From the NCBI GenBank assembly GCA_944325255.1, contig CALUZH010000009.1, forward strand, positions 62,001 through 126,000: a stretch of 64,000 bases of DNA, in the 5' to 3' direction. The notes beneath the pieces are model-generated. The model searched no databases and was not told where the DNA came from. It saw nothing but the letters and a program-made list of their open reading frames with translations. This document shows, one piece after another, positions 56,800 through 62,374 of this stretch; positions within the stretch are counted from its first letter, which is position 1, and each line of letters begins with the position of its first letter. The stretch is from an uncultured Erysipelotrichaceae bacterium. Lineage in GTDB: Bacteria > Bacillota_I > Bacilli_A > Erysipelotrichales > Erysipelotrichaceae. The position numbers were made by a program, and so were the translations under genes.

Positions 56800-57022
56800 T
56801 AAAAAATGCCGCCTTTATATAAAGACGACATCATCGCGGTACCACTTTACTTGTCTTGTTTCCAAGACCTCTCTTCCATAACGCCGGATCGCGTCACTCC
56901 CCTACTTTTATGTTCAGGGCGATATCTCCCAAATGCGTTTCAACGGTGATTTCCTGTCTGCTTCCACCATCCAGACTCGCTTTAAGGCATCATTTCCGCC
57001 TACTACCTTTGTTCATCGATAA
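56800..57022 (-). promoter_or_regulatory. T-box riboswitch upstream of the amino-acid ABC operon
   Basis: The 380-base gap between the importer operon and the coiled-coil gene holds this element. On the minus strand there is Stem I (AGTA, GGCGG...AAAGCGAGTC...CCGTT), then GAAACGCA, the T-box sequence AAAGTGGTACCGCGATGA (56831-56848) and a terminator stem ATGTCGTC.../GGCGGCAT (56806-56831) plus six T. By alignment with the tyrS T-box the specifier is ACG (Thr) at 56936-56938; shifted by one base it would be CGC (Arg, 56935-56937), which restores a purine 3' of the codon. The amino acid is therefore not settled. Confidence 0.9.
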
Positions 57023-57028
57023 TTCAAT

Positions 57029-57090: not shown

Positions 57091-60000
57091 TTATTCCTTA
57101 GAAATGAAAAGCGGATTAATTTTTTGGTCCAGCATATCAATTTCGGCCAATTGTCTTTGTTGGGAAACAAGCTTTTCTTCAAGCTGGTTTTTGGCATCCT
57201 CGAAAAAGACTTCAAAAGTATTCTTAAAGGCCGATAAGGCATCATCAAATTCATTATGGGCCTTGGTAAGCTCCTCCCGTCTTTTGGAAAGCTCGTCAAG
57301 CTTATGCTTATTTTCTTCTTTAAGAGCTTCAATATCACTTGTCAAAAGATTGGTCTTTTCTTGCATTTTCTCCTGCCATTCAAGCTTAGCCTTGGTGAAT
57401 TCAGTATTTAAATCTTCTAAGATATTTGCATATGCTGCTTCACCGTCGGAAGAAGCCTTTTCAAGCTCTTGCAAGGCGCTATTAAAGTTGGTATTTTCTG
57501 CCTCAATATCCTTTTTAAGCAGTTCTTGTCTTTGACTCTCTTCGCTCTTTTTTTGCATATAGTCATCACTTATCTGCAAAATTCGTGTCTCTTCTTCGGT
57601 CATTTCCGCTTCCCGCAATTTAAAGAGCTCTTCCATCTTATTCTTTAAAGCGCCGGTAAAGTTTTCTTCAATGCGGCTCATCGCCGTCAAAACATCGGCA
57701 TTGACATCACGATATGTCTTTTGGGAAAGTAAATAGTCATTTTTGATTTCCCCAAGTTTCAAAACGTAATCATCATAATATTTCTTGTAAGCCAACGGCT
57801 TATCGGCAAAAAGCTGTTTCAGCTCCAGATCGCAATCCTTAAAAAGCTCCTGGCGCTTAGTTATTTGTCCCCGATAAGCTTCAATAATTTCGGCTTTTTG
57901 TTTCTCAATAGCGGCCAGAGCGTCTTTTTTGGCGCTAAATAAAGAATTAAATTCTTCATTGAAAGTTTCTTTGACCATTTCTTGTTTATTAAGATAGGCA
58001 TCAATAACACCCTTTTCCAAAACAATGGCCTTTTGAACTTCATCATTTTTAGCTTCCCAAGTCTCTCTTTCTTCTTTTAAAAGATCGGCCTGTTTAAGAC
58101 AATCATTTTTATAAGCTGCCAGACTTTCATCATAACCTTGACGAATTTTCGCTAATTCCTCATCCTGTAGAGCTTTGGCTTGCGCCAATTCCATCCGTCG
58201 GGCATCAAGTTTAAGGGCGTTAGCCTTTTTAAGTTCTGCCAATTCATCCTTCAAATTTTGAGTGACCATTGCCACTTTGGCATATTCTTCTTTGCCCTTG
58301 GCAATAATGGCTTCTTCATTTTTAAGCAATTCATTTTGCCGCTCATCCAAGGTTTTTAATTGGGCTTCATAGTCAGATTTTACTTTAAGACTTTCGGCAT
58401 TTAAATTTTCTTGATGATTTTTTTGTTCAAAGGCATAGGAAGATCGCAAGGCTGCTAAGGCTGCCTGTAATGATAGGGCATATTGTTCAATCTCAGCTTC
58501 ATGTTGCGCAAGATAAGCCGAAAGATCTGAAGATTGTTTTTGCTTAGCCTTTTCGAGTTCTTGTTTTTTGGCATTAATTGCTTTTTCAAAAGCGCTTAAA
58601 AGCTGATCTTGTTTAGCGAGCTCAAGTTCATATTCTTCATTAGCTTTTTGAAGATTTTTATCCAAATCATCTATTTCGGCCTGCTTGGCATTTTTATAAA
58701 GCTTAAATTGTTCATCCATGGCCTTGATCTTTTTCTCGTTGGCCAGACGGATAGTACTTAGTTCACCCTGGGTTTGCTTATAGGTCGTCATGGCATCGGC
58801 ATAAAGATCTTCTTCATTTTTAAGATCGGCTTTAAGTTTGGCTAAAGTTGCCTCATGTTCTGCCTTTAATAGGGATTTTTCTTCATTTTTAGCCATTTCG
58901 GCATCGATCTTTTCCTGCTCCAAACGGTTTTTAGCGGCCTCATAATCTTTTTTAGCCTGGGCAATGGCGTTTAAGATATCACTGCGCAATACCTGTTCAC
59001 GCGATATCTTAACGGCATTTTCTTCCTTGACATCTTCAATCAAGACCTTAAGCTTGGAATTTTGCTTATTAAGTTCAGCGAAAACCCTTTGAAGATTTTC
59101 TTCATAGGCCGTTTTTTGACTGCTGAACTTGTCATCCATTTCCTTGATTTTGGCCGCATGTTCACTTTTTAAAGTCGCCAAAGCAGCTTGATGACTATCG
59201 GCAAGCTCAGCCATTTTAATATTGTGACTTTGCGTCATTTCTTCTAAAGCAGTTTTATGGACATTTTGGGCCTCAGTTTCTTCCTTTTGAAGCTTGTCCA
59301 TGGCGTCGTCATAATCAAGTTTGGCCTTTTTGGCATCTTCTTTTAGCCGGTCGCTTCTTAAGGCTGTATCTTCAATTTCGCTATTAAGATTGGCAATCCT
59401 TGTCAATAAATCCGACTCATCATTTTTAAAAGCGAAATCCATTTGCATCACTTTTTCCTGATGGGCACTGTTTTCATCACTTAAAAGCTTTTTAAGCTCG
59501 GCAATAGCTTTATTGGCATCCTGAGTCATAGTGATGATGTTTTCTTTCCGTTTCAGCCAATCGCTATTGAGGATATTTAAATCATCGGCAATCTTTTGTT
59601 TAAAAGTACTGAGCTCATTTGTCAAGCGCTCTTTTAAGGATTTGACTTCTTCATTGCGCTTTTGTAATTGCTCATGATAATAATCTTGATCATGCTTATT
59701 TTGTTTACGGAGAGTCGCCTGTTGCAAACGCAAATCATTAATGGCTATTTCATTTTCTTCTTCAAGCTGTTTTTTCTTGGCGGCCAGACTTTGATTTAGA
59801 TTTTCCAAATCTTCTTTTTTTCGCTCTAATTCTTTTTGCAGGCGAGCCATATGGCTTTCATGTTCCGCCTTTTGCCGTTCTAACAATCTTTGATAATTTA
59901 AAGCTTCCGCATTATAGGCATCTTCATAATCTTTTTGGGTTTTAGAAAGCTCAAGATTATAATCCTTTTCCTTATTTGTCTTTGCTTCCTTTAAAGTCAA

Positions 60001-60993
60001 ATACAGGGCATTTAATTGCTTACGATAAGCTTCCGTTTCTTTTTCCCAAGCGGCTTTTTCCTCATCATACATCGAAACTTTATAAGCATAATCAGCCAAA
60101 GCCCGGTCTTTTTTAAGTTCAGCTTGTTTTTTATCTTTTTGGAAGTTTTCCAGACGTCTTGAATAATCATCCTGAAGCCGCTTTTCATGAAGTTCAAATT
60201 GCTTATTTTGTTCGCTCAATTGTCTTTTCAAGCTTTCTTTTTCTTGATTGAGAGCTAAAAGTTCTGAGCGCATTAAAGCCAAGCTGTCTTCATTTTCTTG
60301 TTTAGTCTTGGCAAGATCTTCTTCACTTTGCAGTTTTAAAGTTTCTTTTTCTTGTTCAAAAGTTTCTTCAATCTCTTTCGCATCAAGATCCAAGCTTGAC
60401 ATTTGCTCCATATATTCTTTTTGCAAGCGATTATTTTCATCCCGCAATGAGGCTAATGCGGCATCTTGCTCATTTTGCAATTTACCATAGGCTTCTTCCA
60501 TATCGGCTATAGCTGTTTGATAATCATTTTCCAAAGAATCAAGAGCTTCTTCCTTTTCCTTTATGGCATCTTCCAAAGTCTTTTGCTGCTTATTAAAATC
60601 AGCCTCTAAAATAGATGAGTGCTTTTCAAAAAGTTCTTGCTGTTCATGATTTAAAGAAACAATGTCACTTTTTAGTTTTTCAACATCATTCTTATATTTA
60701 TTTTTGAGTAGAGCCTGTTTATTATCTAATTCAATGCCCTGTTTATAAATAAGCTTGAGATCTTCATCAAGCCTGGCAAAAAAGGCTTCTTCCCTGGCTT
60801 GGCTGTCAGCCGCTTTTTGGGCATAATCTTTCTCAAGCTCAGAATTACGGGCATTAATTTCCTTGATTTTGGTTTTTAATTCGGCATTTTGTTTCTTTAA
60901 ATCATCGAGTTCATTCTTTAATTGACCGGCATCAAATTTATTAATTGTTTTTTTATACCGGTAATTATTAATTTGATCGCTTAATTTGTTCAT
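57091..60993 (-). CDS. Giant coiled-coil protein of unknown function (1,300 residues)
   Basis: Nearly the whole protein is predicted by eye to be long alpha-helical coiled coil: heptad-like runs rich in Glu, Lys, Ala, Leu and Gln with very few Gly or Pro (for example QLKNELDDLKKQNAELKTKI near the start and KNQLEEKLVSQQRQLAEIDM near the end). No signal peptide, membrane helix, ATPase motif or known domain is visible. It is not SMC or MukB (no Walker motifs). The start has GGGGGTATTT and comes 9 bases after the gdhA stop, so it is co-transcribed with gdhA. A scaffold, filament-forming or polar-structure role is a guess. No clear terminator follows. Confidence 0.85.
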   Translation of the reverse strand: MNKLSDQINNYRYKKTINKFDAGQLKNELDDLKKQNAELKTKIKEINARNSELEKDYAQKAADSQAREEAFFARLDEDLKLIYKQGIELDNKQALLKNKYKNDVEKLKSDIVSLNHEQQELFEKHSSILEADFNKQQKTLEDAIKEKEEALDSLENDYQTAIADMEEAYGKLQNEQDAALASLRDENNRLQKEYMEQMSSLDLDAKEIEETFEQEKETLKLQSEEDLAKTKQENEDSLALMRSELLALNQEKESLKRQLSEQNKQFELHEKRLQDDYSRRLENFQKDKKQAELKKDRALADYAYKVSMYDEEKAAWEKETEAYRKQLNALYLTLKEAKTNKEKDYNLELSKTQKDYEDAYNAEALNYQRLLERQKAEHESHMARLQKELERKKEDLENLNQSLAAKKKQLEEENEIAINDLRLQQATLRKQNKHDQDYYHEQLQKRNEEVKSLKERLTNELSTFKQKIADDLNILNSDWLKRKENIITMTQDANKAIAELKKLLSDENSAHQEKVMQMDFAFKNDESDLLTRIANLNSEIEDTALRSDRLKEDAKKAKLDYDDAMDKLQKEETEAQNVHKTALEEMTQSHNIKMAELADSHQAALATLKSEHAAKIKEMDDKFSSQKTAYEENLQRVFAELNKQNSKLKVLIEDVKEENAVKISREQVLRSDILNAIAQAKKDYEAAKNRLEQEKIDAEMAKNEEKSLLKAEHEATLAKLKADLKNEEDLYADAMTTYKQTQGELSTIRLANEKKIKAMDEQFKLYKNAKQAEIDDLDKNLQKANEEYELELAKQDQLLSAFEKAINAKKQELEKAKQKQSSDLSAYLAQHEAEIEQYALSLQAALAALRSSYAFEQKNHQENLNAESLKVKSDYEAQLKTLDERQNELLKNEEAIIAKGKEEYAKVAMVTQNLKDELAELKKANALKLDARRMELAQAKALQDEELAKIRQGYDESLAAYKNDCLKQADLLKEERETWEAKNDEVQKAIVLEKGVIDAYLNKQEMVKETFNEEFNSLFSAKKDALAAIEKQKAEIIEAYRGQITKRQELFKDCDLELKQLFADKPLAYKKYYDDYVLKLGEIKNDYLLSQKTYRDVNADVLTAMSRIEENFTGALKNKMEELFKLREAEMTEEETRILQISDDYMQKKSEESQRQELLKKDIEAENTNFNSALQELEKASSDGEAAYANILEDLNTEFTKAKLEWQEKMQEKTNLLTSDIEALKEENKHKLDELSKRREELTKAHNEFDDALSAFKNTFEVFFEDAKNQLEEKLVSQQRQLAEIDMLDQKINPLFISKE

Positions 60994-61002
60994 AAATACC
61001 CC

Positions 61003-62334
61003 CTACACAATGCCTTGAGCCAACATCGCATCGGCGACTCGCCGGAAAGCATAAATATTAGCACCAGCCAAAAGATTGCCACCTAAGTTATAATATGCAG
61101 CACAATCCTTGGCTTTTTGATAGATATCAACCATTATTTGTTGCAGCTTAGCATCGACGGTTTCCGCACTCCATGGCACAAAAGTGGCATTTTGGCTCAT
61201 TTCCAAACCGGAAACCGCCACCCCGCCGGCATTGGCGGCCTTGGCCGGAGCAAAGAGAACGCCATGTTCACGAAGCAGTTTGACCGCTTCTAAACGGCAT
61301 GGCATATTTGCTCCCTCGCCGACGGCGAGCGTACCATTGGCAATTATTTTCCGGGCGATATTTTCATCAACTTCATTTTGCGTAGCGCATAAAAGAATAA
61401 TATCGGCCTTAATATCAAAGATATTTTCAAAGCCTGCAACGTACGCACATCCCGGATGTTCAAGGGCATAAGTTTTAATACGGCCTTTTAAGTCTTCCTT
61501 TAAATGGCGCATATCTTCAAAATTCAGGCCCTCTTTGGCATAAACATAACCGTCGGAATCAGACATCGCCACCACCTTAGCACCAAAGCTCAAGGCCTTG
61601 GCCATGGCATATAAGGCGACATTGCCCGAACCGGTAATAATGACCTTTTTATCTTTAAAACCTTCATTATGGTCAGCCAAATAGGCCTTCATGAAGTAAC
61701 ATAGTCCATAACCGGTAGCTTCCTTACGAATTAAGGAACCGCCAAAGTCAACGCCCTTACCGGTAATGGCCCCCGAATAGCTGGCGCTAAGCTTTTTATA
61801 TTGACCAAAAAGATAGGCGATTGCCCGGGCATCAACACCGATATCACCGGCCGGAATATCTGTATGCGGACCGATATGGCGATAAAGTTCATTCATGAAG
61901 CTTTGGCAAAAACGCATAATCTCATCAGCACTCTTATTTTTGGGATCAAAGTCACTTCCACCCTTAGCTCCGCCCATAAGCAAGCCGGTCAGGGCATTTT
62001 TAAATATTTGCTCAAAACCCAAAAATTTAATAATGCTCAAATTGACATTGGGATGGAAGCGCAAACCACCCTTATAAGGACCAAGAGCAGAATTAAATTG
62101 AACCCGATATCCCCGATTGACATGAACTTCACCTTGATCATCAACCCAAGGGACACGAAAAATAATCATTCTTTCCGGTTCGACAATCCTTTCATAGATA
62201 CCCTTTTTGGCATATTCGGGATGATGGTCGGCAAGAATCTTAATACTGTCAAAAACCTCTTCGACAGCCTGAAGAAATTCCTTTTCCTGATAGTCTTGTT
62301 TATGCACCTTATTTAATACTTGATCGATTTCCAT
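61003..62334 (-). CDS. gdhA: Glutamate dehydrogenase, hexameric bacterial type
   Basis: Interconverts glutamate and 2-oxoglutarate plus ammonia. The 443 residues match the family length. Substrate residues lie in NRGYRVQFNSALGPYKGGLR (catalytic region), LTGLLMGGAKGGSDFDPKNK (catalytic Lys in GGAKGG) and RHIGPHTDIPAGDIGVDARA; NAD(P)-binding follows in KKVIITGSGNVALYAMAKA. By the family, the MGGAKGGSDFDPK form is usually NADP-dependent. I chose ATG 62334. It is followed 9 bases on by the coiled-coil gene. Confidence 0.95.
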   Translation of the reverse strand: MEIDQVLNKVHKQDYQEKEFLQAVEEVFDSIKILADHHPEYAKKGIYERIVEPERMIIFRVPWVDDQGEVHVNRGYRVQFNSALGPYKGGLRFHPNVNLSIIKFLGFEQIFKNALTGLLMGGAKGGSDFDPKNKSADEIMRFCQSFMNELYRHIGPHTDIPAGDIGVDARAIAYLFGQYKKLSASYSGAITGKGVDFGGSLIRKEATGYGLCYFMKAYLADHNEGFKDKKVIITGSGNVALYAMAKALSFGAKVVAMSDSDGYVYAKEGLNFEDMRHLKEDLKGRIKTYALEHPGCAYVAGFENIFDIKADIILLCATQNEVDENIARKIIANGTLAVGEGANMPCRLEAVKLLREHGVLFAPAKAANAGGVAVSGLEMSQNATFVPWSAETVDAKLQQIMVDIYQKAKDCAAYYNLGGNLLAGANIYAFRRVADAMLAQGIV

Positions 62335-62357
62335 ATTATTAACCACTGCTAACTGTA

Positions 62358-62366
62358 ATTTTACCA
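62358..62366 (-). promoter_or_regulatory. Extended -10 promoter of gdhA
   Basis: Minus strand TGG TAAAAT, giving a leader of about 17 nt with GTGG 8 bases from the ATG. The -35 region is weak. Confidence 0.45.
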
Positions 62367-62374
62367 TTTTTTCA

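Follow-up and report, generated by a model that had tools for sequence, protein, structure and literature searches.

A 64,000-nucleotide stretch of the genome of an uncultured Erysipelotrichaceae bacterium (assembly GCA_944325255.1, contig CALUZH010000009.1, positions 62,001 to 126,000, analysed whole and here termed the window) encodes a 1,300-residue protein whose hydrophobic residues form one 18/5 helical stripe, coherent in phase along the entire chain. The gene is real, its product is compatible with a helix throughout, its length and register are selected, and its C-terminal tail is conserved. We infer an oligomeric coiled coil residing in the cytoplasm with a spacer or scaffold role; on balance the protein is probably a non-enzymatic structural component, a nearly straight coiled-coil rod of fixed length that acts as a length-defined spacer or scaffold and docks a partner through its tail. 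As envisaged, a short N-terminal helix would precede a very long and nearly straight α-helical coiled-coil rod of fixed length, a hinge would lie within this rod near Pro1066, the short conserved C-terminal tail would dock the partner, and the spacer or scaffold action could be exerted either by a single oligomeric rod or by rods assembled laterally.

57091..60993, minus strand: whole gene of the 1,300-residue coiled-coil rod protein, based on the open frame, an ortholog in the same-genus species G001, homologs in genus g3 (28 of 36 genomes), and substitution-rate ratios.

Fourier analysis of the positions of L, I, V, M, F, Y and W along the complete protein gave a single dominant peak at 3.601 residues (18 per five turns) with a power of 97.7, compared with a top power of 14.3 among 2,000 shuffled controls. 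Power at the heptad period of 3.5 is 2.9, and at the hendecad period of 11/3 it is 1.1. Local phase drifts by only some tens of degrees across the 1,300 residues, and rolling 90-residue blocks out of phase (n = 500) lowered the power to a mean of 17 and a maximum of 46. The same stripe characterizes all 27 of 27 homologous sequences, which peak at 3.596–3.622 (some include a phase step or a masked stretch). Treated identically, the control proteins (the organism's own SMC and E. coli MukB) have their maxima close to 3.5, with powers of 10–14. Kept in phase from end to end, an 18/5 stripe would leave hardly any left-handed twist, and the predicted rod is nearly straight and would measure approximately 190 nm if fully extended.

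Relatives of the protein are confined to two genera. A scan of the whole genome-contig collection returned as its only match a contig of the sister species (CASEQH010000031.1), and the ortholog in that species, G001, has 1,304 residues and 25% identity over its full length with 10 gap positions. A profile built on the two orthologs led to a 1,757-residue protein in genus g3, of the same family, and from there to further g3 members; presence was then counted with a six-row and subsequently a sixteen-row profile. Homologs were found in both genomes (2/2) of the window's genus and in 28 of 36 g3 genomes (9 of the 11 high-quality ones), and nothing convincing appeared elsewhere among 273 genomes of the family, 295 of the order and 395 of the class. 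Weak matches in other genera and families were set aside, those opened being unrelated coils of permease-like, lipoprotein-like and other proteins. A control in which 18-residue blocks are permuted retains both composition and helical phase, and the window-genus profile scores the g3 proteins 8–16 standard deviations above such permutations of their own blocks. Because the excess persists over register-preserving permutations, the sequence comparison indicates that the proteins of the two genera are collinear homologs, and not merely similar in composition.

Selection on this family acts on length as well as on sequence. Close g3 pairs have ratios of nonsynonymous to synonymous substitution rates (dN/dS) of 0.05–0.15 over 1,290–1,757 codons, with 0–6 gap columns; since orthologs exist, the ratios are this low and indels are almost absent, the gene encodes a protein under selection and is more than a mechanical open reading frame (ORF). 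The possibility of a pseudogene, named in an earlier sequence-only reading of this DNA as a ground for refutation, is contradicted by the intact frame, the orthologs and these ratios. Homologs fall into length classes of approximately 1,240–1,310 or approximately 1,757 residues, the latter comprising nine proteins (at loci L037, L113, L115, L117, L118, L119, L124, L125 and L126) in which the N-terminal part is duplicated in tandem with an offset of exactly 461 residues, equal to 128.06 turns of 3.6 residues each. Internal indels outside the N-terminal linker, compiled for 19 g3 proteins, span 1–5, 7 and 18 residues, with one of 47+7=54, and g3 indels of 7 and 11 residues occur near the N-terminus. 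Register is preserved by sizes of 18, 54 and 461 residues (5.0, 15.0 and 128.06 turns) and nearly so by 7 and 11; for the smallest g3 indels its preservation is not clear. Molecular spacers are marked by a length that is conserved despite diverging sequence (PMC5082667). This feature is present here, both in the pair of 1,300 and 1,304 residues at 25% identity and in the g3 length classes. Since relatives hold length and helix register while the sequence drifts, length and straightness are probably what the rod protein is for.

The family thus keeps a non-heptad stripe in phase over approximately 360 turns of helix, accepts large indels chiefly when they amount to near-whole numbers of turns, and occurs in two discrete lengths linked by a 128-turn duplication. 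Such proteins are overlooked by heptad-based predictors and profile libraries, and long coils are usually dismissed as featureless. Two testable questions are raised, namely whether straight (non-supercoiled) rods constitute a distinct bacterial building material, and whether the length of the rod is read out by the cell.

Along the chain the following parts can be distinguished.

60931..60993, minus strand: N-terminal part, residues 1–21, a helix (2–17) and a turn (KFDA) before the rod, from AlphaFold2 helices 2–17 and 22–159.
57793..60930, minus strand: main rod, approximately residues 22–1067, with the single-phase 18/5 (3.60) stripe, from the Fourier peak at 3.601 and phase tracking.
57640..57864, minus strand: possible hinge, approximately residues 1043–1117, centred on Pro1066, from proline conservation and a drop in AlphaFold2 confidence.
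57136..57639, minus strand: C-terminal rod segment, approximately residues 1119–1285, from AlphaFold2 helix 221–387 of a 402-residue C-terminal fragment.
57091..57135, minus strand: C-terminal tail from D1286 to the stop, DMLDQKINPLFISKE, a conserved short linear motif, from its conservation; disordered in the model.

The sequence-only reading had described a nearly pure coiled coil, and the chain is indeed almost wholly helical: AlphaFold2 fragments modelled as monomers contain helices at residues 2–17, 22–159, 239–401, approximately 900–1042 and 1119–1285, the long ones with a predicted local distance difference test (pLDDT) score above 90, followed by a disordered tail. In composition the protein is 75% E/K/Q/R/D/N/L/A with 0.2% proline and 0.8% glycine, and it is net acidic (280 E/D vs 219 K/R). 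Confidence is low at approximately 160–238 and 1043–1118. No conserved breaker occurs in the first of these stretches, and the drop in confidence there may be artefactual, arising because a helix was modelled in isolation. The second surrounds Pro1066, a residue found in 16 of 16 rows of alignment A6 and in at least 90% of alignment A4, and a hinge near this residue is probable. The g3 proteins have conserved prolines near positions 345, 721 and 1062; where present, these are mostly 374 and 339 residues apart, and Pro1066 of the window protein is the proline common to both genera. At the start of the rod homologs carry a capping-box-like [D/N/S/T]xx[E/Q][V/L] pattern and no RGYD. In the tail, D1286 is present in 24 of 24 sequences and F1296 in most homologs.

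Several observations weigh against the spacer or scaffold reading. Some unrelated long coils in this class are also near-straight, with periods of 3.62–3.65 and powers of 22–36, so that an average period of this kind is not in itself distinctive; the rod is set apart by coherence over at least 1,300 residues and by the conservation of that coherence, rather than by near-straight packing. The AlphaFold2 models represent a monomer only, with a predicted template-modelling score (pTM) of 0.42–0.47, and are compatible with a folded-back hairpin. An essential or universal role is also difficult to reconcile with a distribution limited to two genera and with absence from 8 of 36 g3 genomes, including 2 of the 11 of high quality.

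Coils that run nearly straight may be widespread in this class. Two more giant domain-poor coiled coils are encoded in other bacterial families of the class, at L158 (genome G414, a 1,202-residue ORF, with neighbours resembling obg, queA and ruvB) and L159 (G540, a 915-residue ORF), with hydrophobic periods of 3.633 and 3.646, respectively, and no apparent homology to the rod. Two 639-residue ORFs (L152 and L153) appear lipoprotein-like and include a long coil of period 3.623–3.624 and power 34–35.

The absence of a named family and of a recognisable enzymatic or membrane domain, both proposed from the letters alone, held up on searching. The window protein has no family match in Pfam, NCBIfam, PHROGs, PADLOC or PDB profiles, no transmembrane segment (best 19-residue Kyte–Doolittle mean 0.65), and no LPxTG or other sorting signal; a Walker A motif was found neither in it nor across the seven homologs checked. 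We file the rod as a new lineage-restricted family of long bacterial coiled-coil structural proteins with an 18/5 rod. The arms of SMC, MukB and Rad50 are likewise long charged helices, but the present rod has no ATPase heads and its power at 3.5 residues is 2.9 against 98 at 3.60, whereas the maxima of SMC and MukB fall close to 3.5 and are coherent over short distances only. Membership in this group, which the sequence-only reading had named as a possible refutation, was rejected on these grounds; weak NCBIfam SMC matches arise from some g3 homologs, and none, in Pfam or NCBIfam, from the window protein. The phage tape measure it had likewise named was also discarded. A collection of 50,697 phage records and a plasmid collection contain no relative, PHROG matches are sub-significant only, and the gene is surrounded by core bacterial genes with no tail-gene neighbourhood. 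Spacers of the golgin and giantin type differ in being eukaryotic membrane-associated tethers, with no homology to the rod.

A likeness to filament and polar-scaffold proteins, suggested from the sequence alone, can stand as a comparison of how such proteins work, and does not extend to a crescentin-type heptad rod or an RGYD..EVD domain. The Streptomyces proteins Scy and FilP, of the DivIVA-like group, are also long bacterial coiled coils without an ATPase domain, and Scy (approximately 1,326 residues) is similar in size and also departs from pure heptads. Both carry an N-terminal RGYD..EVD motif and hendecads with an alanine-rich core (PMC9858780). The present rod differs in having no such motif, belongs to another phylum, and shows no detectable sequence relation to them. 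Its 11/3 power (1.1, and 0.1–2.7 in homologs) is at odds with their hendecad pattern. No homolog has an N-terminal GYD-type motif, the sole one in the window protein being at residue 953 within the rod, and there is no Pfam DivIVA match, so that membership in the DivIVA/GpsB/FilP/Scy group was rejected. A separate short DivIVA/GpsB is encoded in the window genome and in most genomes with the rod gene. A role in gliding or in a terminal organelle, also raised earlier, found no support. The HMW2-type coiled coil of Mycoplasma cytadherence and the terminal organelle, from a small-genome relative of Gram-positives, is similarly giant, but no match of this type occurred in the searched libraries, which did not include a direct HMW2 comparison or a search for organelle genes.

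Three other accounts of the rod have to be weighed against these data. Strict register could reflect self-assembly and not a single-rod spacer, with the protein acting as an intermediate-filament-like cytoskeletal element whose lateral, in-register assembly into cables or sheets would shape or stiffen the cell. Crescentin and intermediate filaments resemble it as cytoplasmic rods with a short head and tail in which length and register are important, and crescentin illustrates such an assembly mode, its parallel coiled-coil dimers associating laterally and end to end (PMC10873595); the phase-locked stripe, few indels and charged flanks of the present rod would suit lateral packing. However, crescentin has a heptad rod of some hundred residues with one stutter (PMC10873595), whereas the present rod carries its 18/5 stripe throughout 1,300 residues, and membership among such heptad rods was rejected on the same power of 2.9 at 3.5 vs 98 at 3.60. 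There is no sequence relation to solved filament proteins, and alanine is low at the core centre, unlike in FilP and Scy (PMC9858780). We consider self-assembly into filaments rather unlikely. Much less credible is a helix lying on the inner membrane surface or wrapping lipid like an apolipoprotein. A single straight helix resting on a flat surface would require a 3.60 stripe, and the best PDB profile match is apolipoprotein A-IV (E 5e-5), yet the hydrophobic arc spans only approximately 110 degrees, with aromatics central, aliphatics at ±30 and acidic residues at approximately ±100 degrees. This narrow arc and the large net negative charge favour a coiled-coil core over a membrane-lying helix, and leave the latter very improbable.

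The third account concerns the partner of the tail, for which an FtsA- or SepF-type protein, receiving the FtsZ C-terminal peptide at the division site, is a speculative candidate. A tail mimicking this peptide would dock the rod on FtsA or SepF and so set the distance from the division site to another structure. In these genomes the C-terminus of FtsZ reads D[IV]P.FFK.R (the proline is absent from one of seven), and rod tails such as NIPDLFKK, DIADIFKKK, DVEDLFRS and INPLFISKE recall it; scored with an FtsZ position-specific scoring matrix, rod tails average 0.9, vs −4.2 for the remaining C-termini of these loci and −4.3 after shuffling of the tails, and in three g3 genomes the rod gene lies near murG-murB-divIB. 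The likeness was noticed post hoc, however, and because the tails are related to one another, the p-value of 8e-8 assumes more independence than they have. Most tails lack the proline, the tail of the window protein has a low score, the tails are equally reminiscent of the beta-clamp motif (xL[SD]LF) minus its Gln, and between divIB and the rod gene there is a tRNA cluster. Such a divisome-linked ruler or tether is thus a long shot, and a longer one still is the full cell-division ruler, an 18/5 rod of approximately 190 nm (approximately 260 nm after the tandem duplication), selected for length and phase, with FtsZ-tail-like docking on the membrane anchors of the divisome. In the window genome ftsA-ftsZ is located elsewhere.

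The rod gene itself is an uninterrupted ORF of 1,300 codons with an ATG start, and, as had been noted, it is the largest of its region, the next ORF of the window having 742 codons. It follows gdhA closely.

61003..62367, minus strand: gdhA, NADP-specific glutamate dehydrogenase (NCBIfam NF006929, 692 bits), upstream of the rod gene; this order is kept in G001 and not in other genera.
60994..61002, minus strand: gdhA-to-rod junction of 9 bp with a GGGGG ribosome-binding site over the gdhA stop, from the sequence; the arrangement is also found in G001.

The strong translation site anticipated 9 bases past gdhA is borne out by this junction, in which TAGGGGGTATTTATG constitutes a strong Shine-Dalgarno upstream of the rod gene and overlaps the gdhA stop codon. 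In G001 the corresponding sequence is TAGGGGGTTTTATG and the gap is 8 bp, and gdhA upstream and an amino-acid ABC transporter downstream flank the ortholog as in the window. The two genes are probably co-transcribed. Core bacterial genes flank the rod gene, in keeping with the core-gene setting described earlier, but the position behind gdhA holds only for the window's genus (two species); in g3 the gene instead adjoins a nine-tRNA cluster, with murG-murB-divIB beyond the cluster in three genomes and htpG, ybeY, era and recO on the opposite side of the rod gene in most others. Comparison of these loci indicates that the gdhA neighbourhood is genus-specific, and since the g3 gene lies in other surroundings, gdhA is not a trustworthy functional clue and was dropped as a link. 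A functional link had been considered by comparison with the case of GdhZ and FtsZ in Caulobacter.

On its other side, the rod gene is separated from the amino-acid ABC transporter genes by a T-box leader (56818-57025, minus strand; Rfam RF00230, 123 bits), which probably places the transporter under a control of its own that responds to tRNA charging. At one g3 locus (L037:13432-19998, minus strand) an ORF of at least 2,188 residues, open at the locus end, lies beyond the tRNA cluster and looks to be of mobile-element or phage type.

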